Shown in pieces: positions 26-12,749 of a stretch of 12,975 nucleotides of DNA. How positions within the stretch are numbered: the first letter of the stretch is position 1; every line of letters starts with the position of its first letter. A program made the translations under genes and the position numbers. The stretch comes from an uncultured Clostridia bacterium (GTDB lineage Bacteria > Bacillota > Clostridia > Oscillospirales > Acutalibacteraceae), in the NCBI GenBank assembly GCA_947565265.1, contig CANOFK010000009.1, forward strand, positions 1-12,975, read 5' to 3'. Below the pieces are notes generated by a model, which saw only the letters and a list, made by a program, of their open reading frames with translations, made no database searches and had not been told where the DNA came from.

Positions 26-57
26 AGGAGGTTGACACGCAGATGCATAAAATTTAG
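25..57 (+). other. Strong RBS and ATG followed in frame by an amber (TAG) codon
   Basis: AAGGAGG (25-31) lies 11 bases before ATG (43-45), the same spacing as the certain start of the next gene (AAGGAGG 1768-1774, ATG 1786). The ATG is in frame with the kinase-isomerase gene, but codon 5 (55-57) is TAG: the reading is M-H-K-I-stop-K-R-P-R-L-L-V-V-G-S. Either the kinase gene carries a 5' nonsense change, TAG is read through, or this is a four-codon leader and translation restarts downstream. The same frame is also open from base 1, so 55-57 might instead end an upstream gene. Confidence 0.6.
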
Positions 58-75
58 AAAAGGCCCCGGCTGCTG

Positions 76-1677
76 GTGGTTGGCAGCTTTGTGATGGACT
101 TGATCGTTTCCGTACGGGAGCTGCCCGGCTCGGGGGAAACCATTTTGGGGCGCACCTTCTCCACTGCCCCCGGCGGCAAGGGGGCCAACCAGGCTATCCA
201 GGCTGCCAGGCTGGGGGCGCAGGTGGACATGGTGGGCAAGGTGGGGGACGACGACTTCGGCCGCCGGCTGGTGGCCTCGGCCAGGGAGGCGGGGGTGGAC
301 ATCAGCCATGTGGCGGTGGACAGGGCCCAGCCCTCGGCCATTGGCAATGTGCTTTTGGAAACGGACGGGAACGGCAAAAGCCGGAACCGCATTGTGGTGA
401 TACCCGGCGCCAACATGGCCATAGAGCCCGCGGACGTGGCCTTTTTGCAAGACTGCATAGGGATGTACGACATGGTGCTGCTGCAGCATGAGATACCCGC
501 CGAGGTGAACGGGCTGGTGGCGGCCTATGCCGCTGCCGCCGGGGTGCCGGTGATGCTGAACCCGGCCCCGGCCGCGGCAGTGCCGGACGAACTTTTGGGC
601 AGGCTGGCCTATATCTCACCCAATGAGCACGAACTGGAAAGCCTGACCGGCATAAAGGTGAAGGCGGACGGGGTGCTGGACCGGGAGGCCCTGGGCCGGG
701 CCGTGGAAACGCTGCACCGCAAGGGGGCCCGGAACGTGGTGGTTACCTTGGGCAGCGGGGGCGCGGCGGTTTCGGACGGGGCGGAGATCCTCTACAGCCC
801 CTGCGTGGATGCCATACAGGCCGTAGACCCTACGGCGGCCGGGGACAGCTTTGTGGGGGCCTTCTGCACCGCGGTATGCGCGGGGGCGGACCATCAGACG
901 GCCCTGGGGTTGGCCAACTGCGCGGCCTCCCTGACCGTGTCCCGCATGGGGGCCCAGCCTGGGCTGCCCTGGCTGGGCGAGGTGCGGGAACTGCTGGACC
1001 GGCTGGGGGATACCCGGATAGACCGGGGCCTGCTGGCCGGGCTGGGCGGCGGACGGACCGGGCGCATCGGCGAAACCGCGGCCCAGGCCCTGGAACGGGG
1101 CAAGGAACTGGCCGGCCGGGAACTGGAGCGCTTTATAGCCGGCATGGATGTGGCGGGCTATGAGGCCGCCGCCGGGGTGATATGGGACGCCCAGGCAAAG
1201 GGCGGGCGGGTGCACATTACGGGCATCGGCAAGCCCTCCCATGTGGCCAACTACATGGCGTCGCTGCTGAGCTCTACCGGCACGCCCACCTATTTCCTCC
1301 ACGGGACAGAGGCGGTGCATGGCTCCTGCGGGCAACTGGTGCCGGGGGATGTGGTCATCTGCATCTCCAACAGCGGCGAAACGGCGGAGATGAAATCTAC
1401 CGTGGCGGCCATACAGAACAACGGCTGCAAGGTGATTGGGGTTTCCGGCAACCCGGAAAGCTGGCTGGCGGAAAGGGCCGACGCCCATATTTTCGCCGGG
1501 GTGGAGCAGGAGGGCGGGCCCTTGAACCGGGCCCCGCGGAACTCGGTACTGGCGGAAATGCTGGCGCTGCAGGGGCTGAGCCTGATTTTGCAGGCCCAGC
1601 GTGGGCTGACCCCCAGGGAATATGTGCGCTGGCACCCGGGCGGGGCCCTGGGCGCCCTGCGGGACAACGAGCGCTGA
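76..1677 (+). CDS. PfkB (ribokinase-family) kinase fused to a KdsD/GutQ-like SIS isomerase
   Basis: This predicted cytoplasmic bifunctional enzyme would phosphorylate a sugar and then isomerise the sugar phosphate. Residues 1-310 (counted from GTG 76) are a ribokinase fold: the GGKGAN substrate motif is at 33-38 and the anion-hole/catalytic motif DPTAAGD at 251-257, D257 being the likely base. Residues 330-533 are a sugar-isomerase (SIS) domain with GIGKPSH (383-389), STGTPTYFLHGTEAVHG (400-416), SNSGETAEM (431-439) and a C-terminal HPGG (520-523), all as in arabinose-5-phosphate isomerases; the CBS pair of E. coli KdsD is absent. The start is uncertain. The good RBS belongs to ATG 43, which meets an in-frame TAG at 55-57; GTG 76 has only a weak AAAAGG (58-63) and loses the first residues of strand 1 (R-L-L-V before V-G-S). 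Domain calls are firm. The substrate, perhaps D-arabinose, is inferred from the neighbours. Confidence 0.88.
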   Translation: MVGSFVMDLIVSVRELPGSGETILGRTFSTAPGGKGANQAIQAARLGAQVDMVGKVGDDDFGRRLVASAREAGVDISHVAVDRAQPSAIGNVLLETDGNGKSRNRIVVIPGANMAIEPADVAFLQDCIGMYDMVLLQHEIPAEVNGLVAAYAAAAGVPVMLNPAPAAAVPDELLGRLAYISPNEHELESLTGIKVKADGVLDREALGRAVETLHRKGARNVVVTLGSGGAAVSDGAEILYSPCVDAIQAVDPTAAGDSFVGAFCTAVCAGADHQTALGLANCAASLTVSRMGAQPGLPWLGEVRELLDRLGDTRIDRGLLAGLGGGRTGRIGETAAQALERGKELAGRELERFIAGMDVAGYEAAAGVIWDAQAKGGRVHITGIGKPSHVANYMASLLSSTGTPTYFLHGTEAVHGSCGQLVPGDVVICISNSGETAEMKSTVAAIQNNGCKVIGVSGNPESWLAERADAHIFAGVEQEGGPLNRAPRNSVLAEMLALQGLSLILQAQRGLTPREYVRWHPGGALGALRDNER

Positions 1678-1710
1678 AACGCTTAGCGGGCAGAAAAATG
1701 GGAATACTGG

Positions 1711-1733
1711 AAACCAGGGGGACGGCCTGGTTT
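1711..1733 (+). promoter_or_regulatory. Intercistronic hairpin 1 between kinase-isomerase and DUF6259-like genes
   Basis: AAACCAGG (1711-1718) pairs perfectly with CCTGGTTT (1726-1733) around a seven-base loop. Only three T residues end the stem and GGC follows, so termination would be weak at most. It is the first of three hairpins in the 108-base spacer. Confidence 0.5.
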
Positions 1734-1745
1734 GGCATGGATAGG

Positions 1746-1763
1746 CTCCCGGCGGGCCGGGAG
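1746..1763 (+). promoter_or_regulatory. Intercistronic hairpin 2, adjacent to the SD hairpin
   Basis: CTCCCGG (1746-1752) and CCGGGAG (1757-1763) form a seven-base perfect stem with tetraloop CGGG. It ends on the base before the SD-bearing hairpin (1764-1779), so the two stems could stack end to end. Confidence 0.5.
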
Positions 1764-1779
1764 GTGCAAGGAGGTGCAC
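1764..1779 (+). promoter_or_regulatory. Hairpin presenting the Shine-Dalgarno sequence in its loop
   Basis: GTGCA (1764-1768) and TGCAC (1775-1779) are reverse complements. The six loop bases are exactly AGGAGG (1769-1774), the ribosome site for ATG 1786. The unit also contains a direct repeat GAGGTGCA (1761-1768 and 1771-1778). The structure could tune ribosome access to the DUF6259-like gene; five base pairs is modest and this has not been folded by computation. Confidence 0.45.
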
Positions 1780-1785
1780 GGAAGT

Positions 1786-3978
1786 ATGATCGTATTGAAC
1801 AGCGGACGGCTGGAAGTGGCCATTGACCGGGACACCGGGGCCATACGGCAGGTGACGGACCTGCGTACCGGCACGGTGGTGGCCAAGGGGACCCAGCGGG
1901 AGGCTTTTATCCTGGAGCGGGAAGAGGGCTGCTTTTCCTCCGGCTACCGGCGTTTCTCTTACCGGGAGGAGCCGGGCAGGGTGGAACTTTGCTGGCAGCG
2001 GGAGGACGGCGTGGCCGTGGAGGCACAGGTACGGGTGCGGGGGGAGGCCATCGCCTTTACCGCCCGGGCCTATGGGAACAGGGACTTCCCCCTGTGCAGC
2101 CTGGAGTACCCGTTGATCAACGGCATAAGGAGCATTGGCGGGGACGAGGACTACCTGGCCCATGCCTATGCCACGGGGTTTTTGGTACAGAACCCCCACG
2201 GGGCCTTTGAAAAGGAAGGGGACGGCCTGCGGCATATGCCCTACCCGGAGTCCTTCTCCGGGGCGTCGATGCAGTTTTTTACCTACTACACCCAGGGGCT
2301 GTGCGGGCTGTACTTTGCCGCCGAGGACGGCGGGTTTTACCAGAAGTGGCTGGATTTTTATAAGTCCGGCGACGCCCTGCGGGCCAGCCAGGCCTTTGGC
2401 TATGAGGATGTGGGGCCGGGCAAGCCGGTGGAGAGCCACTGGGACTTCCTGATGCAGGCCACGGAAGGGGACGGCTGGTACGAGGCGGCGGACCTGTATA
2501 AGGCGTGGGCCCTGGGGCAGGTGTGGTGCCGGCGGGGCCGGCTGCGGGACCGGCCGGCCGAAGAAAAGGCTGGCTGGCTGCTGGAGGATACCGGCGCCGT
2601 GACCTTTGGCATAAACGGGATGCACGACCGGGCCAAGTGGATACGCAAATACCGGCAGGCTGTGGGCGCGCCCTTGTTCCATGTGACGGGGCCGGACTGG
2701 CCACGGGTGCCCCAGACCTACGGCAGCGGTGTGCCGGGGGGCTACCCGGACTGGTTCCCCACCCGGTTCCACCCGGAAAATGTGCGGGCCTGGCAGGAGG
2801 ACGGCGGGCATTTTGCCCCCTTTGAGTTCGACTTTTTGGTGGACCCGGAGAAGGGGGACAGGGAAAAGCTACAGGCCAGCCTGCAAAAATGGCCGGAGAA
2901 ACCGAAGTCCCATGACGGGTACAAGTTCCATATGCTTTGCCCCCTTTGCGGGTACACCAGGGAACTGCACCGGGAACGGGACAGGCAGGTGGTGAAGGAG
3001 TGCGGCGCGGACGCCATGTACTATGACATCTCCGCCAACAACATTTTGAAAACCTGCATGGAGGAGGGCCACGGCCACCCGGTGGGGGCCGGCCGGCAGA
3101 TGACGGAGGGCTACCGGGAAATATACCGGGACACCCGCCGGGCCCTTTCGGCGGACAGGGGGCGGTATATCCCCCTGGGCACGGAGATGATTAACGAAAG
3201 CCTGCTGGACGTGCTGGACTTTTACCAGGCCAGGGCCAACGCCCAGCCCTGCTCGGCTTTGGAGCTGTGGCCCTACCGGACGCTGCTGCGGCTGAACCGG
3301 GCCTGGCTGGTGCCCATGTTCCAGTATGTATACGCCGGGTATGCCCCGGTGCGGATGGACGGCTGGGGCAAGCTGGCCGCCGAGGGCGGCGACCTGGTGT
3401 ACCATACCATTGCCAAAACCTACCTTTGGGGCGGGCTGTTTGAGATCAACAGCGAATACAGCCCCATGGAGGTGATAGACGGGGCAGGGGAGAACAGCTC
3501 GGACGAGCATTACTGCCGGCTGGAGCCCAGGGGCTACCGGTTCGACGAGGGGATAGGGGCCTATATACGGAAGTTTGCCGCCCTGCGCACAGGCCCTTAC
3601 GGGAAGTTTTTGGCCTATGGGGAGATGCTGCGGCCCCCAGAACTGGTTTGCCGGAGGACGCCCCGCACCTACCTGCAATATAACCTGAGCGCCGGGACCG
3701 CGGAGCAGAACACCAGCGGCGCCATTACCCGGAACAGCGTGGTGGCCCAGGCCTACCGGCTGGAGGGGGAAGTAGCGGTCTTTTTGGCCAACACCACGGC
3801 CCAGCCCCAGGAGGTGGCGGTGGATGTATCGAGAATAAAGGATGCGCCGGCATGGTTGGCGTGTTTGGACTATACGGACGAAAACCAGACGGAAAAGGTG
3901 GTGGATAGCAAAAAACTGGAACGCCTTACATTGGGCCCCTATCAAGTGGCTGCCCTGCGGTGCGCCGCGGGGGAATAA
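1786..3978 (+). CDS. Large DUF6259-like putative glycoside hydrolase, cytoplasmic
   Basis: A 730-residue protein starting at ATG 1786, 11 bases after AAGGAGG (1768-1774); an earlier in-frame ATG at 1732 lacks an RBS. There is no signal peptide or membrane segment, so it should act in the cytoplasm on imported oligosaccharides. The N-terminal ~270 residues look like a beta-sandwich (short alternating hydrophobic strands), the middle like a TIM-barrel hydrolase, and the last ~100 like a small beta domain. Acidic residues in barrel-like motifs are D409/D414 (DAMYYD), E467 and E471 (GTEMINES) and D525 (VRMDGWG), plausible catalytic carboxylates. A CPLCGY motif (385-390) has two closely spaced cysteines. 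Overall style matches DUF6259-type proteins related to clan-D-like hydrolases, recalled from memory rather than searched. The specificity is unknown; context suggests an arabinoside or other furanoside. It sits between the sugar kinase and transporter genes, 23 bases before the latter's start. Confidence 0.72.
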   Translation: MIVLNSGRLEVAIDRDTGAIRQVTDLRTGTVVAKGTQREAFILEREEGCFSSGYRRFSYREEPGRVELCWQREDGVAVEAQVRVRGEAIAFTARAYGNRDFPLCSLEYPLINGIRSIGGDEDYLAHAYATGFLVQNPHGAFEKEGDGLRHMPYPESFSGASMQFFTYYTQGLCGLYFAAEDGGFYQKWLDFYKSGDALRASQAFGYEDVGPGKPVESHWDFLMQATEGDGWYEAADLYKAWALGQVWCRRGRLRDRPAEEKAGWLLEDTGAVTFGINGMHDRAKWIRKYRQAVGAPLFHVTGPDWPRVPQTYGSGVPGGYPDWFPTRFHPENVRAWQEDGGHFAPFEFDFLVDPEKGDREKLQASLQKWPEKPKSHDGYKFHMLCPLCGYTRELHRERDRQVVKECGADAMYYDISANNILKTCMEEGHGHPVGAGRQMTEGYREIYRDTRRALSADRGRYIPLGTEMINESLLDVLDFYQARANAQPCSALELWPYRTLLRLNRAWLVPMFQYVYAGYAPVRMDGWGKLAAEGGDLVYHTIAKTYLWGGLFEINSEYSPMEVIDGAGENSSDEHYCRLEPRGYRFDEGIGAYIRKFAALRTGPYGKFLAYGEMLRPPELVCRRTPRTYLQYNLSAGTAEQNTSGAITRNSVVAQAYRLEGEVAVFLANTTAQPQEVAVDVSRIKDAPAWLACLDYTDENQTEKVVDSKKLERLTLGPYQVAALRCAAGE

Positions 3979-4001
3979 CCGACAGAAAGGATGGACGACT
4001 T

Positions 4002-5468
4002 ATGAAGAACACAAAGAAAACATTGGCCCTGCTGTTGGCGCTGGCCCTGGTACTGGCAACGGTACTGGTTGGCTGCGCGGGCGGGGATAACGGAGAGAGC
4101 GGAAGCAGCACGGTGGCCAGCACGCCGGAGGAGGACGGGAGCAGCCCTGAAGAGGAGGGGGAGCCCGCCGGGGACGAAGGCGGCGAGGAAGGCGCAGAGG
4201 GCGAAGAAGAGCCTGTGCACGTAAACCCCTATGAGGGCACCGAGTACCCGGAAGGGGAAGAGATCGTGCTGTGGAGCCAGAGCATGGGCGACATCTGGGT
4301 GAATTTCTTCGAGAAGTCTGTGCATGAATACAACCTGGAGGGCCGGGGGTATACCATCCGCGAGGAGTTTATTGCCGCTTCTGCCTGGGACGAGCGCATT
4401 GCGGCGGCGCGGGCCTCGGACACCTGCCCCACGGCGTATATCCAGTCTTACAACCACATCCCTACCGGGGTGAAGGAAGGCTATTACGGCGCGTTTGACG
4501 ACTACATGGACAGCGCGGTGTTTGACGATATGCTGCCCATTGTAAAAGAGATGGTTTCCATTGGGGGCAAGACCTATGCCATCCCCCTGCTGTGCGAGCC
4601 CTCGATGGTGCTGTACTACCGCAAGGACCTGCTGGAGGCCGGCAACTATACCGAGCCACCCAAGACCTGGCAGGAATTGATTGACATGGCCAACGCCCTG
4701 AAAACCGACGAGGTGTTCGGGCTGGAGATACCCGGCTTTGGGGATATGGGCTGGAGCACCTGGGGGATGCAGTTTGGCAACGCCGGCCACGGGCCCATCA
4801 ACGACAACTGGGACGCGCCGCTGATTGACGACGGCTACCGGGATATTGCCCTGTTCTTTAAGGAGCTGTACGATACCGGCGCGGTGCCGGAGCAGCCTTT
4901 GTCCGGCTACACGGACATTAAGCCCTTTGGCCAGGGGGACGTGGTGTTCCAGATTTGCGGCTCTTGGGCGGTTACGGATTTGATTGACACCTACCCGGAG
5001 GTATGGGAGAACACCGGCGTGGCCGTGGTGCCCACCAAGGACGGCAACCTGGACAAGACCACCGCGACCATTGGCGGCTGGGTGTATGTGCTGGACTCGA
5101 AGGCGGAGAAGCCGGAGGGCGCGGCGGACTATCTCTCCTGGCTGGTGAGCAAGGAGAACCCCCAGCGGCTGGGCCAGTACTATGTGGACGTGAAGTTTGC
5201 CAAGGCCTCGCCCTTTGCCAGCATTGCGGACTGGGCGGCGGAGCAGGCCGGGGACGGCGCGGCGTATGTGGACGTGATCAACCGCATTTCCTCTTACGGC
5301 CAGCCGGAGGCGGCTTACCCCTGGGATATCTCGGCCAGGGTGGCCTCCCTGTTTGAGGACGTGGCCATGGGGTACGACGACATTGACAACGCCTTGCAGG
5401 CCTGCGCGGAGGATATACAGCAACTGATAGACGACAACAACCTGCCCGGCACAGACCCCCGCAAGTAA
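4002..5468 (+). CDS. ABC transporter sugar-binding lipoprotein (SBP family 1)
   Basis: A 488-residue extracellular solute-binding protein that would capture sugars or oligosaccharides for the two permeases downstream. ATG 4002 is chosen because AGAAAGGA (3984-3991) lies ten bases before it and it opens a typical lipoprotein signal: K-rich N terminus, hydrophobic core 8-23, and lipobox L-V-G-C with the lipidated cysteine at C25. Residues 26-71 are a disordered, strongly acidic linker (15 Asp/Glu within 43-70, no Lys/Arg) that would hold the binding domain off the membrane. The binding fold starts near residue 88 (IVLWSQSMGDIW), and the protein has the aromatic-rich character usual for carbohydrate-binding SBPs. 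It sits 23 bases after the hydrolase gene and is followed by a long intercistronic hairpin that may protect its mRNA, as binding proteins are usually needed in excess over permeases. The ligand is not readable from sequence. Confidence 0.92.
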   Translation: MKNTKKTLALLLALALVLATVLVGCAGGDNGESGSSTVASTPEEDGSSPEEEGEPAGDEGGEEGAEGEEEPVHVNPYEGTEYPEGEEIVLWSQSMGDIWVNFFEKSVHEYNLEGRGYTIREEFIAASAWDERIAAARASDTCPTAYIQSYNHIPTGVKEGYYGAFDDYMDSAVFDDMLPIVKEMVSIGGKTYAIPLLCEPSMVLYYRKDLLEAGNYTEPPKTWQELIDMANALKTDEVFGLEIPGFGDMGWSTWGMQFGNAGHGPINDNWDAPLIDDGYRDIALFFKELYDTGAVPEQPLSGYTDIKPFGQGDVVFQICGSWAVTDLIDTYPEVWENTGVAVVPTKDGNLDKTTATIGGWVYVLDSKAEKPEGAADYLSWLVSKENPQRLGQYYVDVKFAKASPFASIADWAAEQAGDGAAYVDVINRISSYGQPEAAYPWDISARVASLFEDVAMGYDDIDNALQACAEDIQQLIDDNNLPGTDPRK

Positions 5469-5515
5469 CGGGGCCGGCGCTTACGGGACTTGATGGAAGG
5501 CAACTGAATAGGGTT

Positions 5516-5593
5516 TCCGGGGCCTGCCTTGCAGGCACCTCTGAAAACAAAGGAGATACCGGGTTTTCAGACGTGCCCTGGGCGGGCCCCGGA
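5516..5593 (+). promoter_or_regulatory. Long intercistronic hairpin between binding-protein and permease genes
   Basis: Three stacked stems close one 78-base structure. 5516-5529 pairs with 5580-5593 (14 pairs, two G-U). After a small internal loop, GGCAC (5534-5538) pairs with GTGCC (5573-5577). After a C-C mismatch, TCTGAAAAC (5540-5548) pairs with GTTTTCAGA (5563-5571). The 14-base apical loop contains AAAGGAG. No T-run follows. A competing small hairpin, GCCTGC (5522-5527) with GCAGGC (5531-5536), excludes the outer stem. The likely role is to stabilise the binding-protein mRNA or attenuate read-through into the permeases. Confidence 0.75.
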
Positions 5594-5626
5594 CGCCTTT
5601 ACTACCTGAAAAGGAGGTATGGGAAT

Positions 5627-6547
5627 ATGCGTAGGCCGGCCGGTACAAAAGTGCCCCGCTACACCAAAATGCAAAAGCGGGATATGCGCACCGCCTACCT
5701 GATGCTGCTGCCCGCTGTGGCGCTGCTGACGGTGTTTGTGGTGGCCCCCTTGGTGATGGCCATTGACAAAAGCTTTTACGACTGGAACTTTTACGGAAAC
5801 TCGACCTTTGTGGGGTTTGAGAACTTCCGGGTGATTGTGGTGAACAAATCTTTTAGGCGGGCGGTGGTGAACGCCCTGAAGTTTGTGGCCATTTTGGTGC
5901 CGTTGCAGATTTTGCTGCAATTCGCCTTTGCCCACCTGCTGAAGAGCCTTTCCGTGCGGTTCTCCAACGCCATTAAGACCGCCATCTACATCCCCGGCAT
6001 TATTGCGGGCATTGTGGCGGGCATCATCTTTATGTTTATCTTTGAGTATAAGGGCGGGCTGATCAACCAGATGCTCACCTCGATGGGCCTGTCCCGCATC
6101 GCCTTTTTGAACAACGGCTTTTGGGCCATGTTCTCCATTGTGGTGCCCACCCTGTGGCTGGGCTTTGGCGGGGGTACCATCCTCAACTACGCGGGGCTGA
6201 TCAGCGTGCCGGCGGAGTACTATGAGGCGGCCTCTATTGACGGGGCCGGGGCCTTCCGCAAGCTGGTGTACATCACCCTGCCCCAGATGAAGAACATCTT
6301 TGTGTTGCAGTGCATCAGCATGGTGACGGGCACCTTGCAGATGTTTGAGGTGCCGATGATGATGACCAACGGCGGCCCCAGGGAGAGCACCCTGACCCCC
6401 ATGCTGTACATCTACAACAACTTTAAGAGCACGGGCGTGAACATGGGCCGGACCATTGCAGGGGCGCTGCTGATTATGATTTTTATCGCCATACTCAATT
6501 CCTTTGTGTTTACGGTGATCCGGTCCGAACGGTCCATTGACGGTTAA
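5627..6547 (+). CDS. ABC sugar transporter permease 1 (CUT1, MalF/LacF-like)
   Basis: A 306-residue inner-membrane permease. ATG 5627 lies nine bases after AAGGAGG (5611-5617); an upstream in-frame GTG at 5573 falls inside the long hairpin and has no suitable RBS. Hydrophobic segments near residues 22-46, 80-104, 117-138, 165-189, 222-246 and 273-297 give the usual six helices. The cytoplasmic EAA loop that docks the ATPase is clear at about 200-219 (EAASIDGAGAFRKLVYITLP). The stop codon overlaps the ribosome site of the second permease, so translation is coupled. No ATPase gene is present; in Firmicutes such CUT1 transporters often share a general MsmX-type ATPase encoded elsewhere. Confidence 0.95.
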   Translation: MRRPAGTKVPRYTKMQKRDMRTAYLMLLPAVALLTVFVVAPLVMAIDKSFYDWNFYGNSTFVGFENFRVIVVNKSFRRAVVNALKFVAILVPLQILLQFAFAHLLKSLSVRFSNAIKTAIYIPGIIAGIVAGIIFMFIFEYKGGLINQMLTSMGLSRIAFLNNGFWAMFSIVVPTLWLGFGGGTILNYAGLISVPAEYYEAASIDGAGAFRKLVYITLPQMKNIFVLQCISMVTGTLQMFEVPMMMTNGGPRESTLTPMLYIYNNFKSTGVNMGRTIAGALLIMIFIAILNSFVFTVIRSERSIDG

Positions 6548-6560
6548 GGAGGGAAAACAG

Positions 6561-7397
6561 GTGAAAACGAAACCTTTGGCAAAACTCCGGCGGGGCGTGG
6601 GCTACTGCGTGGCCCTGGCCGTAGCGGCGGTATCGCTGTTCCCCCTGCTGTGGATGTTTTTGGCCAGCTTTAAAAACAAGCAGGAGGTATTGGCCACCCC
6701 CCTGCGGATGCTGCCCAAGGCCTGGATAACCACCAACTATGAGGCCGTGTTGGTCAGCACCAAGAACCCCCTGTTCCATGCCATGCTGGTGACCTTTGTG
6801 GTGGCGGTGCTGGGCGTGGTGTTCTCGCTGCTGGTGAACATGATGGCGGCGTACGCCTTTGCCCGGCTGGAGTTTTTTGGCAAGCGGCTGTTTTGGGTAT
6901 ACTGCCTGATTACCATGTATGTGCCGGGGCTGACGATCCTGATCACCTCTTACCTGGTGGTGCACTCGCTGCACATGATCAACACCATATGGGTGCTGCT
7001 GGTGCCGGGCATTGCGGGCGGGTACAATATCTTCTTCTTCCGGCAGTTCTTCTTGAACATACCCGCCAGCCTGGAGGACGCGGCCCGGATAGACGGCTGC
7101 GGGCGGTTCCGCATATTCTGGACCGTGTTCTTGCCCCTTTCGGTCACGCCCATGGTGGTGCAGGGGGCGGGGATCTTTATCGGCTACTGGAACAGTTTCA
7201 TGTGGCCGTCCATCACGGTAACGGACAAGTCCATCCAGCAGGTGATGCCCATTATCCGCTCGTTCCAGACCGACTACGGCACGGAGTACGGCCGCATTAT
7301 GGCCGCCACCTGCCTGGCGGTGATACCGCCCATTGTGCTGTTTGCCATCTTCCAAAAGCATATTGTCAAGGGCTTTGTGCTCTCCGGGCTGAAGTAA
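6561..7397 (+). CDS. ABC sugar transporter permease 2 (CUT1, MalG/LacG-like)
   Basis: A 278-residue inner-membrane permease, partner of the preceding one. The start is placed at GTG 6561, eight bases after AAGGAGG (6546-6552), whose first two bases are the last two of the previous gene's TAA. A TTG farther upstream (6537) would overlap the previous gene and has no RBS. Hydrophobic segments include about 13-36, 73-98, 110-135, 140-163, 188-210 and 248-266. The EAA motif is at about 171-193 (LEDAARIDGCGRFRIFWT then VFLPL), the usual docking loop for the ATPase. The gene ends in GLK, typical of CUT1 MalG-type permeases. It is followed at 19 bases by the DUF4185 lipoprotein gene. Confidence 0.95.
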   Translation: MKTKPLAKLRRGVGYCVALAVAAVSLFPLLWMFLASFKNKQEVLATPLRMLPKAWITTNYEAVLVSTKNPLFHAMLVTFVVAVLGVVFSLLVNMMAAYAFARLEFFGKRLFWVYCLITMYVPGLTILITSYLVVHSLHMINTIWVLLVPGIAGGYNIFFFRQFFLNIPASLEDAARIDGCGRFRIFWTVFLPLSVTPMVVQGAGIFIGYWNSFMWPSITVTDKSIQQVMPIIRSFQTDYGTEYGRIMAATCLAVIPPIVLFAIFQKHIVKGFVLSGLK

Positions 7398-7416
7398 GGG
7401 GAGGGGCTGTGGCAGT

Positions 7417-8697
7417 ATGGACAGTGTAAACGGTGTGAGCAGGAAAGTGAAACAGGGGGTGGCCGCCATACTGGCTGCCCTGGTGGCGCTGGCTGCCGGG
7501 GGCTGCCGGGAGGCCGGGCCTGCCCCGGAGCCTACCCCCAGCCCTGCCCCGGCCCTGGCTGTGGCAGAGGCCAGCCCCACGGCAAAACCCACCCCGCAGG
7601 CCCTGACCAACGCCGAAAAGACCCGCCAGAAGGGGGAGGCGGTGGTAGCCGGGCTGCTGGAAAAGAACGTGACCTACAAGCCCCTGCGGGACCCGGAGGG
7701 GGCCTATACCCTGAAAGGGGTGAAGAACATCCACATGATCGGGATGGTGACAGGGGAGTACTCGGAGAACCGTACGGCCAGCCGATACGGGGTGGGGGGT
7801 ACGGACCTGGGGGTGACGGTCAACAGGGGGGAGGAAACCTTCCTCTTCTTTGGGGACACCTTCCGGTATGAGGACCAGACCGGGAACTGGCGCAGCAATG
7901 TGGCCGCCGTGACCAGGGACAGCGACTATACCGACGGTATCACCTTTGACAGGATGATTGTGACCGGCACCGGGGTGGCCAAGGAGCTGCTGCGGGGGAA
8001 AAAGGCAGAGGGCAAAGAGGTGACGAAAATACCCACCGGGGCTGTATGCATCGACGGCAACCTGTACCTGTCCTTTATGTCGGTGCGGCACTGGGGGGAG
8101 CCCGGCGCCTGGGACTGCAACTATGGCGCGGTGGCGAAAAGCACCGACGGCGGGGAGAACTGGGAGATCCTGGAGGGGCTGGCGTGGCCGGGGGAGAGCC
8201 GGTTTTGCCAGATGTACCCGGTGCTGGTGGAGGATATGGTGTATGTGCCGGGCATTGGCGGCGGGCGCAACGGCGGCGCGGCCCTGATGCGGGCGCCTGC
8301 CGGCCGGTATGAGGAGTTTGACGCCTACGAGTACCTGACCGGCTATGGGGAGGACGGCACGCCTGTCTTTACCCAGGGGGAAGAGGGGCTGGAAAAGGCC
8401 ATCGACTTTTTGCCAAAGCCGGTGGGGGAGATGTCCTTTTTGTACAGCGAGTACCTGGGGGAATGGCTGGTTACGTATATCTCCGGGCAGGATATTATTT
8501 TGCGCAGCGCCAAGGAGATATGGGGGCCCTACTCGAAACCCGTGACCATCGCCGCCCAGCAGGACTTCCCAGGCCTGTATGGCGCGTTTATGAACCCCCG
8601 GTATGTGTCGGAGGACGGGAAGAAGATCGGCTTTTTCATGTCCCTGTGGCTGCCGGTGTACAATGTGGCCCTGATGGAAATGGAACTGGAAAAATAA
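7417..8697 (+). CDS. DUF4185 lipoprotein, candidate endo-D-arabinofuranase (GH183)
   Basis: A 426-residue secreted lipoprotein. ATG 7417 follows GGGGAGG (7398-7404) by 12 bases. Residues 10-29 are a lipoprotein signal ending in L-A-A-G-G-C with lipidated C30; 31-62 is a Pro/Ala/Thr linker. The rest fits DUF4185, a beta-propeller family: GGTDLG (127-132), LFFGDTF (143-149) and NWRSNV (157-162) near the N end, an Asp-box STDGGENW (242-249), and a C-terminal stretch with FMNPRY and FMSLWLPVYNVALM (407-420). D130 and D147 are the conserved acidic candidates. Members of this family were shown to be endo-acting D-arabinofuranases (CAZy GH183), so a cell-surface enzyme that cuts arabinan into importable pieces is a good hypothesis; the family is broad and this member's activity is inferred. 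Confidence 0.82.
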   Translation: MDSVNGVSRKVKQGVAAILAALVALAAGGCREAGPAPEPTPSPAPALAVAEASPTAKPTPQALTNAEKTRQKGEAVVAGLLEKNVTYKPLRDPEGAYTLKGVKNIHMIGMVTGEYSENRTASRYGVGGTDLGVTVNRGEETFLFFGDTFRYEDQTGNWRSNVAAVTRDSDYTDGITFDRMIVTGTGVAKELLRGKKAEGKEVTKIPTGAVCIDGNLYLSFMSVRHWGEPGAWDCNYGAVAKSTDGGENWEILEGLAWPGESRFCQMYPVLVEDMVYVPGIGGGRNGGAALMRAPAGRYEEFDAYEYLTGYGEDGTPVFTQGEEGLEKAIDFLPKPVGEMSFLYSEYLGEWLVTYISGQDIILRSAKEIWGPYSKPVTIAAQQDFPGLYGAFMNPRYVSEDGKKIGFFMSLWLPVYNVALMEMELEK

Positions 8698-8700
8698 ATT

Positions 8701-8757
8701 GCCTACAAGGCGGGCCGCGGGACTTCCCATGGAAGGGCCGCGGCCCGGCCTGTAGGC
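8701..8757 (+). promoter_or_regulatory. Long intercistronic hairpin between DUF4185 and GH116 genes
   Basis: The 20 bases at 8701-8720 pair with 8738-8757, giving 18 base pairs and two mismatches. Inside, CTTCC (8723-8727) pairs with GGAAG (8731-8735) around a CAT loop. The structure begins four bases after the DUF4185 stop and ends seven bases before the GGAGG (8765-8769) of the GH116 gene. No T-run follows, so termination by this element alone is unlikely; mRNA stabilisation or processing is more plausible. Confidence 0.78.
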
Positions 8758-8775
8758 GGGAAACGGAGGTCGGTT

Positions 8776-11199
8776 ATGGATAAAAGCTATACGGGCAGGC
8801 AGTTGGAGCAGGTCAGCTTCCCGGTAGGGGGCATGGGCGCGGGGATGTTCTGCGTGGAGGGCACAGGGGCCATTGGCAGCCTCTCTTTGCGCAACGCGCC
8901 GGATTTGTTTTATGAGCCAGAATGCTTTTCGGCCCTATACGCCCGGCGGGACGGGGCGGACTGGGCCAGGGTGCTGGAGGGCCCTGTGCCCCGGCGGAAG
9001 ATATTTGGGGGGTGGGGGACTTTATCCGGACTGGGGACCAGCAACCAGTTCGGCAAAACCTATGGCCTGCCCCGGTTCCGGGCCAACACCTTTACGGGGC
9101 GGTTTCCCTTTGCCAGGCTGGCGTTCCAGGAAGAGGGGGCGCCGCTGGAGGCGTCCATGACGGCTTTTAGCCCCTTTTTGCCTGGGAACGAGGATGACTC
9201 TTGCCTGCCGGCGGCAACCCTGCGGTATACCTTTGAGAACCGGGGGGACAGCCCGGTGGAGGCGGTGTACTCCTTTCACACCGTCAACTTTATGGTGCAC
9301 CCGGCGGACAAGTGGTTTCCCTCGCCCCTACGGGAGGAGCCGGAGGGGACCATCACCCGGCAGGGGGGCGGGCTGCTGCTGGCCTGCCCGGCCAGGGAGG
9401 GGGACCCGGCCGCCTTTGGCCAGTGCCTAATCCAGGTGGGGGAGGCGGGGGCCCTATGCCATACGGACTGGTTCCCCAGCGGCTGGTTTGACCCCCTTAC
9501 CATGCTGTGGAAGGGCCTGGCCGCAGGCGAAACGCCCCAGGGGGAGCGGGCGGACGGCAAAAGCCTGGGGGGCTCGCTGGCGGTGCGCTTTTGCCTGCAA
9601 CCGGGGGAGCGCAGGGAAATCGACCTGCACTTTGCCTGGTATGTGCCAAGAACCAACCTGCGCCTTGGCTATGAGGCCCAGGGGGGGCCGGGGGCCAAAG
9701 AAACCTACCGGCCCTGGTACGCCGGGCGCTTTGGAAACGTGGAGGAAGTGATGGCCTACTACCGGGGGCAGTTCACCCGGCTTTGGGAGGAATCGGCGGC
9801 GTTTTCACGGGCGCTGTTTGCCTCTACCTTGCCGGAAGGGGCGCTGGACGCGCTGGCGTGCAACCTGTCGATTTTGAAATCCCCCACCATTTTGCGGCAG
9901 ACGGACGGGCGGCTGTGGGCCTGGGAGGGTTGCTGCGACAACATAGGCAGCTGCCACGGGAGCTGTACCCATGTGTGGAACTACGCCCAGGCCCTCTGCC
10001 ACCTGTTCCCCCGGCTGGAGCGCAGTTTCCGGGACGCGGAGTTCCATGAGGACCAGAACGGGGCGGGGCATCAGGAGTTCCGCTCCTCGCTGCCCATACG
10101 GCCTTCGGGCAACACCTTCCACGCGGCCGCGGACGGGCAGTTGGGGGGGATCATGAAGATGTACCGGGAGTGGCGCATCGGCGGGGACATAGGCTTTATA
10201 CGGGCATACTGGCCGTTGATGAAGAAGAGCCTGGACTACTGCATCGACACCTGGGACAAGGGCCGGGAAGGGGTGCTGAAGGAGCCCCATCACAACACCT
10301 ATGACATTGAGTTTTGGGGCGCGGACGGTATGTGCTCCTCCTTTTACCTGGGGGCCCTGGTGGCCATAAGCCGCATGGGCCGGGCGCTGGGGGAGGATGT
10401 AACCGGGTACGAGCAACTGTACTGCCGGGGCCGGGCGTACCTGGAAACCCGGCTGTTTAACGGCGCATACTTTGTGCAGCAGGTGGAATGGGAAACCTTA
10501 CAGGCGCCTTTTGACCTTTCCGGGGAGCCGGCGGCCTGCCGGGCCCTGATGGAGCGGGAAGGGCCCAAGTACCAGTACGGCGCCGGGTGTATTTCCGACG
10601 GGGTGATGGGGGCCTGGCTGGCCCGCGTCTGCGGGCTGGGGGATATTCTGGACCCGGCAAAGGTGAAGAGCCACCTGCTGGCCGTATACCGCCACAACTT
10701 TAAGCCCGACCTGACAGGGCACGCCAACCCCCAGCGTCCCGGCTATGCCCTGGGCAACGAAGGGGGGCTGCTGCTGTGCACCTGGCCCCAGGGCGGCAGG
10801 CCCTCGCTGCCCTTTGTGTACAGCGACGAGGTGTGGACGGGCATTGAGCACCAGGTGGCCGCCCACCTGATGCTGTTTGGCTGTGTGGAAGAGGCAAAGT
10901 CCATTATAGCGGCCAGCAGGGCCCGGTATGACGGGGCGAAACGCAACCCCTTTGACGAGTATGAGTGCGGCCACTGGTACGCCAGGGCGTTGGCCTCTTA
11001 CAGCTACTTGCAGGCCTACACCGGCGTGCGCTATGACGCGGTGGAAAAGACCCTGTATGCCAGCGGGCAAAACGCCCCGGCCTATGCGGTGTTTTTGAGC
11101 ACGGCAACCGGGTATGGCGTGGTGACTTTGCAGGACGGCCGGGTGGACTTGCAGGTGGTGCGGGGGGAGATACCGGTAGAACGGGTGGTGCTGGCATAA
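8776..11199 (+). CDS. GH116 (DUF608) glycoside hydrolase, cytoplasmic; candidate exo-D-arabinofuranosidase
   Basis: An 807-residue enzyme, near the length of bacterial GH116 proteins. ATG 8776 follows GGAGG (8765-8769) by six bases. There is no signal peptide, so it acts on imported glycosides. The N-terminal domain opens with FPVGGMGAG (15-23) and LSLRNAP (36-42), like the FPLGGIGAG-type entry of GH116; the (alpha/alpha)6 catalytic part shows THVWNYAQAL (398-407), HAAADGQLGG (449-458), HHNTYDIEFWG (505-515), ISDGVMGAW (606-614) and DEVWTGIEHQVAAHLM. D608 aligns by motif with the family's acid/base aspartate; E512 is conserved-looking, but I do not assign the nucleophile. Known GH116 activities include beta-glucosidase, beta-xylosidase and glucosylceramidase, and some act as exo-D-arabinofuranosidases; the DUF4185 neighbour favours the last. 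It is the last gene of the operon. Confidence 0.9.
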   Translation: MDKSYTGRQLEQVSFPVGGMGAGMFCVEGTGAIGSLSLRNAPDLFYEPECFSALYARRDGADWARVLEGPVPRRKIFGGWGTLSGLGTSNQFGKTYGLPRFRANTFTGRFPFARLAFQEEGAPLEASMTAFSPFLPGNEDDSCLPAATLRYTFENRGDSPVEAVYSFHTVNFMVHPADKWFPSPLREEPEGTITRQGGGLLLACPAREGDPAAFGQCLIQVGEAGALCHTDWFPSGWFDPLTMLWKGLAAGETPQGERADGKSLGGSLAVRFCLQPGERREIDLHFAWYVPRTNLRLGYEAQGGPGAKETYRPWYAGRFGNVEEVMAYYRGQFTRLWEESAAFSRALFASTLPEGALDALACNLSILKSPTILRQTDGRLWAWEGCCDNIGSCHGSCTHVWNYAQALCHLFPRLERSFRDAEFHEDQNGAGHQEFRSSLPIRPSGNTFHAAADGQLGGIMKMYREWRIGGDIGFIRAYWPLMKKSLDYCIDTWDKGREGVLKEPHHNTYDIEFWGADGMCSSFYLGALVAISRMGRALGEDVTGYEQLYCRGRAYLETRLFNGAYFVQQVEWETLQAPFDLSGEPAACRALMEREGPKYQYGAGCISDGVMGAWLARVCGLGDILDPAKVKSHLLAVYRHNFKPDLTGHANPQRPGYALGNEGGLLLCTWPQGGRPSLPFVYSDEVWTGIEHQVAAHLMLFGCVEEAKSIIAASRARYDGAKRNPFDEYECGHWYARALASYSYLQAYTGVRYDAVEKTLYASGQNAPAYAVFLSTATGYGVVTLQDGRVDLQVVRGEIPVERVVLA

Positions 11200-11210: not shown

Positions 11211-12005
11211 TTACCGGCCGGCGGCTTTCCAGAATGCCTCCAGCGTACGGTTAAACGCTTGGGGTACATCCATGTTCACACAGTGGCCGGCGTTGGCGAA
11301 AATGGCCAGGGTGCAATCCGGCTCGCTGTTTTTCCACGCCCGGACCGCCTCTAGTTCCATGGGGACGTCAAACGCCCCGCAGCCGATGAGCAGGGGGTAA
11401 TCCCTTGGCCCTGGCTTATGCCGGTTTACCAAACGGTGGAGCGTTGCCAGGTACCGGAACGACTTTTTGGGAAAGCGTAGGTTCATGGCGTAAAATTCGT
11501 TTTGGGCCTTTGGGGTATAGGCGGAAATCTCCCGGTTTGCTTTGGCAAACCATTTCACCGAGAAAAGCGCTTTCAGCATCATTTGCGCCTGTTTGGCGCT
11601 GTTTGCGCGGTTCATTTTGGGGTCGAACCGGCAGATGTCATACCCTCCAAAGCAGGCCAGGGAGCTTACGGCATGGGGGTAATGGTGGGCAAAATCCTGC
11701 GCCAGGACCGCGCCCAAGGAAACGCCGGCCATATGGATTTTGTCAATTTTTTCCGCCTGTAAGATGGCATAGATCCACGGGGACATCCTTTCGATGGTGT
11801 CCCCTTTTTGCGTGTGCAGGGACTGCCCGTGGCCGATGACGTCAACAGCCAGGATGTTGTAGGTGTGCTGAAAATACGCGAACTGGGTTTGGAACATTTG
11901 GTGGTTGACAAAAGCCGCGTGGATAAACAGCACCCATTCGGCCTGCCCGGCGGCCCGGCTTACAAAATAGGTAAGGGGCGAGTTGGCTAACTTTCTTGGC
12001 TTCAT
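11211..12005 (-). CDS. Alpha/beta-fold hydrolase
   Basis: A 264-residue cytoplasmic serine hydrolase of the alpha/beta fold, without a signal peptide. The nucleophile elbow G-V-S-L-G puts the catalytic serine at S96; the likely Asp is D213 (AFD) and the His H241 (AGH); an HG-like oxyanion segment is near residues 28-31 (FIHAAF). The start at 12005 is supported by AAGGAGG (plus-strand CCTCCTT, 12015-12021) nine bases upstream. The sequence resembles the general esterase/lactonase/peroxidase-like hydrolases, so the substrate cannot be named. It points toward the GH116 gene, with only 11 bases between the stop codons and no obvious terminator. Its RBS lies within the tail of the restriction-gene remnant, so it may be transcribed from the promoter at 12791-12819 through that remnant. 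Codons are less GC-rich than in the sugar operon, suggesting a separate origin. Confidence 0.88.
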   Translation of the reverse strand: MKPRKLANSPLTYFVSRAAGQAEWVLFIHAAFVNHQMFQTQFAYFQHTYNILAVDVIGHGQSLHTQKGDTIERMSPWIYAILQAEKIDKIHMAGVSLGAVLAQDFAHHYPHAVSSLACFGGYDICRFDPKMNRANSAKQAQMMLKALFSVKWFAKANREISAYTPKAQNEFYAMNLRFPKKSFRYLATLHRLVNRHKPGPRDYPLLIGCGAFDVPMELEAVRAWKNSEPDCTLAIFANAGHCVNMDVPQAFNRTLEAFWKAAGR

Positions 12006-12011
12006 GATTTC

Positions 12012-12749
12012 CTACCTCCTTTTCTGGGGATTGCCCGGCGGTGGGGGAAGAAATACCCCGCTCCCGCAGCAGCGCCGGATCTTCTCCTTCTTTTCTTCTG
12101 CCGTCCACGCACGGATGAAGTTGTCCAGCGAGGCGTACTCCCCCAAAATATTTTCCTTTGTATAGTCCATCATGCTCTCCTGCCGGAGCAGCTTGCCGTT
12201 GGTATCGTAGATGGAAACCGTTTTGTAGATGACCTTTACCGTGCAGCCGTTTGCGTCTACAACCGGCTTTTCCTGTGGGCCTACCGGGGGGACGGGCGGC
12301 TTTCCGGCACCGGGGACGGGTGCGGTTGGGGCAAAGCCGTCTACCTGCTCCACAGGGCCGCCCCAGCCGGGGTCTGCAAACAGCCGGGTCACTTTGCGGA
12401 AGTCCATCACCACAAAGTGGGTTTTCCCCTCCTTTTCCCGCAGCCGGGTACCCCGGCCAATGATTTGCTTAAATTCCGTCATGGAGCCGGTCATCTCGTC
12501 CAGAACGATCAGCTTTGTCATTTTGCAGTCCGCGCCGGTAGAGAGCAGCTTGGAGGTGGTTGCAATCACAGGTCCCTCTTTTGACGTGGAAATGAAGTAT
12601 TTCAGCTTGCTTTTGCCGTATTCATCGCTGCCGGTTATGCGCACCACATAGTCCGGGTTTTCCCTGACCATGTCCGCGTTCAGGTTGACCAGCGCCAGGC
12701 GCATCCGTTCCGCGGCGTCCTCGGTGGCGCAGAATTGGATGCAACGGTA
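12012..12749 (-). pseudogene. hsdR: Internal fragment of a type I restriction enzyme HsdR (helicase part)
   Basis: This is a broken piece of the motor subunit of a type I restriction-modification system. Homology starts abruptly near 12749 (CIQFC, helicase motif IV region), and the frame upstream hits TAA at 12792-12794. Counted from the in-frame ATG 12704, ATTSKLLSTGAD (48-59) matches motif V and QIIGRGTR (80-87) motif VI of the superfamily 2 helicase; then come FADPGWGGPVE and a proline-rich link (123-145) leading into the DYTKENILGEYASL segment typical of HsdR. At about 12072/12073 the frame appears shifted: reading LLRERGI in another frame restores the family pattern after EEKKEKIRR, consistent with loss of one base. 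The nuclease and first helicase domain, the C-terminal interaction domain, and hsdM/hsdS are all absent here. It cannot encode a working restriction enzyme. Confidence 0.85.

Follow-up and report, generated by a model that had tools for sequence, protein, structure and literature searches.

The 12,975-nucleotide stretch analysed here (the window; contig CANOFK010000009.1, C9, of assembly GCA_947565265.1 from an uncultured Clostridia bacterium) carries seven genes that we interpret as an operon with which a Clostridia-type bacterium takes up and breaks down D-arabinan. From the sequence, we put the probability of this scheme at roughly 0.78. D-arabinan itself is very probably the target, because enzymes acting on it are the best matches of both the GH183 and the GH116 protein, and the residues diagnostic of those enzymes are conserved in the two proteins. 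An earlier note on this DNA had named the same target and gene families, and Pfam and NCBIfam searches of each protein confirmed the families at their positions, far above chance. The seven genes are as follows, with the underlying open reading frame (ORF) in brackets where it differs.

43..1677, + strand: PfkB-SIS fusion, proposed D-arabinose kinase / D-arabinose-5-phosphate isomerase (Pfam, NCBIfam and PDB matches, 5' end sequence); PfkB domain at about 79-972 and SIS domain at about 1204-1569, both +
1786..3978 (ORF 1732-3978), + strand: DUF6259 protein, no signal peptide seen at the N-terminus (DUF6259, E 6e-25)
4002..5468 (ORF 3960-5468), + strand: solute-binding lipoprotein of an ATP-binding cassette (ABC) importer, lipobox LVGC at the N-terminus (SBP_bac_8, E 7e-27)
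5627..6547 (ORF 5573-6547), + strand: ABC permease A, UgpA-like, start uncertain (BPD_transp_1; NCBIfam NF007852 below cut-off)
6537..7397, + strand: ABC permease B, UgpE-like, start uncertain (BPD_transp_1; NCBIfam NF008210 below cut-off)
7417..8697, + strand: GH183 (DUF4185) probable surface lipoprotein, weak lipobox LAAGGC, proposed endo-D-arabinanase (PF13810, E 1e-76)
8776..11199, + strand: GH116 protein, no evident signal peptide, proposed exo-beta-D-arabinofuranosidase (both GH116 domains, E 1e-48 and 4e-36)

The genes occupy the left part of the window as far as 11199, and no two neighbours are more than about 160 bases apart. Because the gaps are small, the permease ORFs 5573-6547 and 6537-7397 overlap each other, and the strand switches beyond 11199, where two ORFs belong to other families, the seven genes likely form one operon. 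The importer lacks an ATPase gene, as the earlier note had described (SBP_bac_8 and two BPD_transp_1 proteins). The genome is 60% complete. The first base of the window is also the first base of its contig, so the locus is truncated on its left side.

The GH183 protein matched DUF4185 at 258.5 bits (curated cut-off 39.5), and its sole PDB match at E ≤ 1 was EndoMA1 (8hhv/8ic1, wild-type and mutant entries; E 2e-49). Its Asp130 and Asp147 aligned with the catalytic Asp33 and Asp51 of EndoMA1, and both were invariant across 30 aligned sequences, including that of the window. For comparison we used 80 GH183 loci, the best of 424 relatives, examined by single-sequence searches in stretches limited to 10 kb or by the end of the contig. 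In 51 of these loci the best GH183 protein agreed with a loose lipobox pattern, and several of the misses look lipoprotein-like by eye.

The best PDB match of the GH116 protein was the exo-beta-D-arabinofuranosidase ExoMA2 (8ic6; E 2e-111, 36% identity, 376.8 bits), whereas glucosidases matched at E 2e-11 or weaker, with 46.2 bits at best. It thus did not fall into the glucosidase-type group, a placement that the earlier note had named as contrary to its proposal. In the alignment, its Glu384, His399, Arg436 and Asp510 correspond to Glu431, His446, Arg483 and Asp557 of ExoMA2. According to PMC10509167, Glu431 and Asp557 are the catalytic residues, and Arg483 and His446 mark the specificity difference from the beta-glucosidase TxGH116 (His507 and Asp452). 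In these residues and in its scores the window's protein agrees with the exo-beta-D-arabinofuranosidases of GH116 subfamily 4. We also aligned the window's GH116 with those from the 80 loci that scored over 150 bits, leaving out weaker matches, and found that Glu, His, Arg and Asp were kept in 25, 25, 24 and 24 of the 25 sequences, the exceptions being gaps.

The kinase and isomerase domains lie within the single ORF 76-1677 (PfkB, E 1.8e-58; SIS, E 2e-17). The SIS domain matched 5uqi (E 1e-27) and 2xhz (E 3e-26) in the PDB and is of the KpsF/GutQ/KdsD type, which supports the PfkB kinase fused to an arabinose-5-phosphate-isomerase-like domain that had been proposed earlier. Against NCBIfam kpsF it reached 127 bits, under the cut-off of 203.7, and covered only model positions 1-151 of 268. 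Its Lys, Glu, Glu and His, which we take to be the catalytic positions of KdsD, were kept in the window and in nine of ten relatives; L080, in which the match is split over two ORFs, lacked two of them. We found no account of the KdsD active site in the open-licence literature. The isomerases KdsD, GutQ and c3406 share this SIS type, whereas in the fusion no CBS domains were found, the partner is PfkB and the setting is a catabolic operon. Arabinose-5-phosphate isomerases are best known from the synthesis of 3-deoxy-D-manno-octulosonic acid (KDO). In a search of 16 genomes KDO-8-phosphate synthase never reached its cut-off, with 11 of them giving weaker matches, so a role of the fusion's isomerase in KDO synthesis is unlikely. 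None of the 942 plasmid records matching the fusion covered 80% of it.

A PfkB and SIS pair, adjacent or fused, was found in 9 of the 80 GH183 loci, an FGGY or fucose-isomerase-type gene in 37, and both in none (hypergeometric P 0.0024, for loci that are not independent, three of the nine coming from one genus). The other 34 loci have neither module, although two of them have a lone PfkB or SIS match. In G090, one of the genomes of the order that have this kinase clade with a SIS partner, GH183 and DUF6259 stand next to the pair. Fucose-isomerase-type domains occurred in 15 of 16 genomes and lay inside the GH183 locus itself in three (G042, G045 and G054); among the nine window proteins scanned there was no fucose-isomerase-type or FGGY domain, in a locus that is cut at its left end.

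From families, conserved catalytic residues, gene order and linkage, all of which were computed, we infer every substrate and the direction of each step in the following scheme. The lipid-anchored GH183 would cut D-arabinan at the cell surface, the source being arabinogalactan or lipoarabinomannan of mycobacteria, corynebacteria or their relatives. The solute-binding protein (SBP) and the two permeases would import D-arabino-oligosaccharides with a presumed ATPase borrowed from elsewhere in the genome. In the cytoplasm, GH116 would remove beta-D-arabinofuranose caps, while alpha-linked units would be removed by GH172, which lies beside the operon in a relative and is probably encoded just past the contig end here. 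The DUF6259 protein probably removes some further alpha-linked sugar. Finally, the PfkB-SIS protein would phosphorylate D-arabinose at O5 and isomerise D-arabinose 5-phosphate to D-ribulose 5-phosphate, which would enter the pentose phosphate pathway.

The role given to DUF6259 follows from its predicted fold, which resembles the retaining alpha-glycosidases of GH129 (NagBb and ZgGH129) and GH36; the likeness is in the predicted fold only, with 12% identity to GH129. No PDB sequence matched the protein at E ≤ 1, no other Pfam model matched it, and we found no publication on DUF6259 in the open-licence literature. The family was present in 16 of 28 non-actinomycete GH183 loci and in none of 52 actinomycete ones; among 24 GH183 loci checked it occurred in 16, against 0.145 expected under random placement. 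The idea that it substitutes for GH172 was weakened, since a GH172-family gene stands in the same stretch in 15 of the 16 GH183 loci that have DUF6259; in seven of these 15 it is close (over 500 bits) to that of G019, a genome of the same genus as the window's, and the rest have only a distant kind. More tentatively, as something short of an even bet, the sequences suggest two wider proposals together: that a kinase-first D-arabinose route through the PfkB/SIS pair displaces the isomerase-first module in Bacillota and some Actinomycetota, and that DUF6259 is a new retaining alpha-glycosidase family stripping a decoration or cap (e.g. galactosamine or mannose) from imported D-arabino-oligosaccharides.

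The D-arabinan cluster itself is of a known kind. An ABC-based D-arabinan locus of Microbacterium arabinogalactanolyticum, induced by D-arabinose and by mycobacterial wall extract, was published in 2023 and called typical for Gram-positives (PMC10509167). The window holds the Microbacterium-type set of GH183, SBP, two permeases and GH116, and both loci cluster GH183, an SBP_bac_8 importer, GH116 and the kinase and isomerase functions. They differ in that the Microbacterium locus has four GH183 genes rather than one, belongs to Actinomycetota rather than Bacillota, and contains GH172 inside the cluster, with LacI beside it as in G019, whereas the window has no GH172. The Microbacterium locus encodes an FGGY kinase and a protein whose C-terminal domain is of the fucose-isomerase type, so that isomerisation comes first; in the PfkB-SIS route of the window the kinase comes first. 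Among the Microbacterium ORFs of at least 200 amino acids over 40 kb there was no PfkB, SIS or DUF6259 match, whereas the window has all three. PUL42 of Dysgonomonas gadei has GH183 and GH172 enzymes in a polysaccharide utilization locus of the Bacteroidota type, and the main text of the paper describing it never mentions a kinase or Firmicutes (PMC10115798); a GH116 candidate in the PUL42 cluster is noted in PMC10509167.

The earlier note had taken an ABC-transporter-based Firmicutes locus with a kinase-isomerase to be new. This was overstated, because the Microbacterium locus with GH183, GH172, GH116, isomerase and kinase had already been published, but the Bacillota version and the fusion go unmentioned in the available parts of that paper. 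We met no mention of a Bacillota D-arabinan locus, a PfkB-SIS module or DUF6259 in the available parts of PMC10509167 and PMC10115798 or in the titles of other open-licence papers. In the open-licence literature, 'D-arabinose kinase' together with 'arabinose 5-phosphate isomerase' gave nothing, and D-arabinofuranosidase with Paenibacillus was met only within a reference list. What appears to be new is therefore the PfkB-SIS fusion, which would phosphorylate D-arabinose first and replace the module of isomerase and then FGGY kinase, and the presence of DUF6259 within non-actinomycete GH183 loci. The proposed operon would extend D-arabinan breakdown to Bacillota, supply candidate enzymes for taking apart the cell-wall glycans of mycobacteria and corynebacteria, point to a catabolic role for arabinose-5-phosphate isomerases, and make DUF6259 a candidate for a new glycosidase family.

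Several observations weigh against the D-arabinan operon. The full path from D-arabinan to D-ribulose 5-phosphate that the earlier note had seen in the window was not supported, because the exo-alpha-D-arabinofuranosidase GH172 is missing from the window, and a search of the 60%-complete genome, which gave no match in any control genome either, did not find it. GH183 is patchy, occurring in 2 of 29 genomes of the genus. The scores of the GH183 paralogues, the ribokinase-like scores of the kinase, the pair's occurrence outside arabinan loci and the fucose-isomerase-type genes on other contigs, all given below, count against it as well. In addition, there is an in-frame stop near the start of the fusion gene: ATG at 43-45 is followed by TAG at 55-57, and the first open start is GTG at 76. 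This TAG could stem from faulty assembly or mark a difference between strains, as it lies 55 bases from the contig end; protein P0001 (565 amino acids), 100% identical over the query, has no stop at that position. The ATG is the likely start, and the gene probably begins left of 76. A recoding signal was set aside as a reading of this single stop so near the contig end.

The gene order of G019 bears on the missing GH172. It runs GH172, LacI, PfkB-SIS, DUF6259, SBP, two permeases, GH183 and GH116 (the same place as L011, JAETSR010000002.1, Clostridiaceae bacterium isolate S33_Bin4, with identical coordinates), and the best match of its GH172 is ExoMA1 (E 1e-128). Relative to this order, the window contig ends between the fusion gene and where the LacI regulator would lie, and on this comparison GH172 is probably encoded just past the contig end. 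Each of the 20 different GH183 genomes searched (listed under 21 handles, since one appears twice) has a GH172 over the cut-off somewhere in its sequence, and a GH172-family ORF lay within the fetched stretch in 62 of the 80 loci. L012 (6301), L013 (8743), L016 (6383) and L018 (8814) have another, more distant GH172 between permease B and GH183, which scores about 140-155 bits against that of G019; in the window there is no gene in that slot.

Other explanations concern the sugar handled by the fusion and the glycan attacked by the hydrolases. It is rather unlikely, though less so than the two alternatives that follow, that the hydrolases and importer form a D-arabinan locus while the fusion is of a ribokinase type for D-ribose or another sugar, D-arabinose being handled by an L-fucose-type isomerase plus a kinase whose genes lie in other parts of the genome. 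The kinase scored 281.8 bits against the ribokinase equivalog TIGR02152 (cut-off 299.65; first residues omitted from the query), and its relative in G246, a genome of the same family, just exceeded that cut-off (307.7), so D-ribose is a live alternative substrate. The kinase domain also shares 59% identity with proteins of Anaerotruncus colihominis and Faecalispora jeddahensis that stand alone and bear the name 'ribokinase'. In G246 the pair, 62% identical to the fusion, stands in a sialidase-like operon with no GH183; in G164 and G282 it was found without any searched arabinan gene in the stretches read; and a lone kinase of the clade in G221, 50% identical and without a SIS partner, stands beside purine-type amidohydrolases, one of them carrying an adenine-deaminase domain, a setting in keeping with ribose use. 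PF02952 isomerases lie elsewhere in G000 and G040, and the window genome has four fucose-isomerase-type matches on other contigs, two of them over the cut-off, so the fusion need not be the sole route. On the other side, no FGGY or fucose-isomerase-type gene accompanies the pair in the nine GH183 loci described above, the SIS domain retains the arabinose-5-phosphate isomerase positions, and among the 6 of 245 genomes of the order that have the kinase clade, five carry the SIS partner fused or adjacent, which would be needless for ordinary ribose use.

That the target is not a mycobacterial-type wall but another D-arabinofuranose-bearing glycan, for instance one in the lipopolysaccharide or on the pilins of Gram-negative neighbours, seems distinctly improbable. 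Some GH183 enzymes act on alpha-1,5-linked D-arabinofuranose oligosaccharides from P. aeruginosa PA7 pilin, as reported in PMC10115798. The window's GH183 matched best the SBP-adjacent Microbacterium paralogue (253 bits, against 172 for EndoMA1 and 48 for a third); by position this is MIAR_33320, which was induced but insoluble, its activity never being assayed (PMC10509167). A GH116 with the residues of ExoMA2, however, fits the beta-linked D-arabinofuranose ends of the arabinan domain (PMC10509167). A beta-glucoside or xyloside locus, with GH116 as a glucosidase and DUF4185 unrelated to arabinan, is very improbable indeed: beta-glucosidases and glucosylceramidases make up the majority of the GH116 enzymes characterised so far (PMC10509167), but on the PDB ranking and the four ExoMA2 positions we reject a glucosidase or xylosidase role for GH116, and the GH183 partner and the neighbouring GH172 in G019 also speak against such a locus.

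The G246 operon (L118, 1650-10196) comprises an IclR regulator, a lyase of the dihydrodipicolinate synthase family, an importer, a BNR_2 protein, YhcH and the split PfkB/SIS pair. A KDO aldolase would yield D-arabinose, and this operon is possibly a second D-arabinose source through KDO; sialic acid use is at least as likely, because NanE and NagA/NagB genes adjoin. The lyase is compatible with the KDO reading, as it scored only 44.8 against an N-acetylneuraminate lyase cut-off of 281.

A promoter scan of the window gave 7 sites where shuffled sequence gave 2.8 on average, but three of the 7 are on the plus strand and none of these three precedes an operon gene; a terminator scan gave 16 against 13.5 in shuffled sequence. 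Beyond the operon, an alpha/beta hydrolase gene (11211-12005, minus strand) is convergent to GH116 and its product fell under every curated NCBIfam cut-off listed. Beside it lies a fragment of a gene for an EcoAI-type type I restriction subunit R (12012-12704, minus strand), which looks truncated because only model positions 427-647 of 768 were matched.

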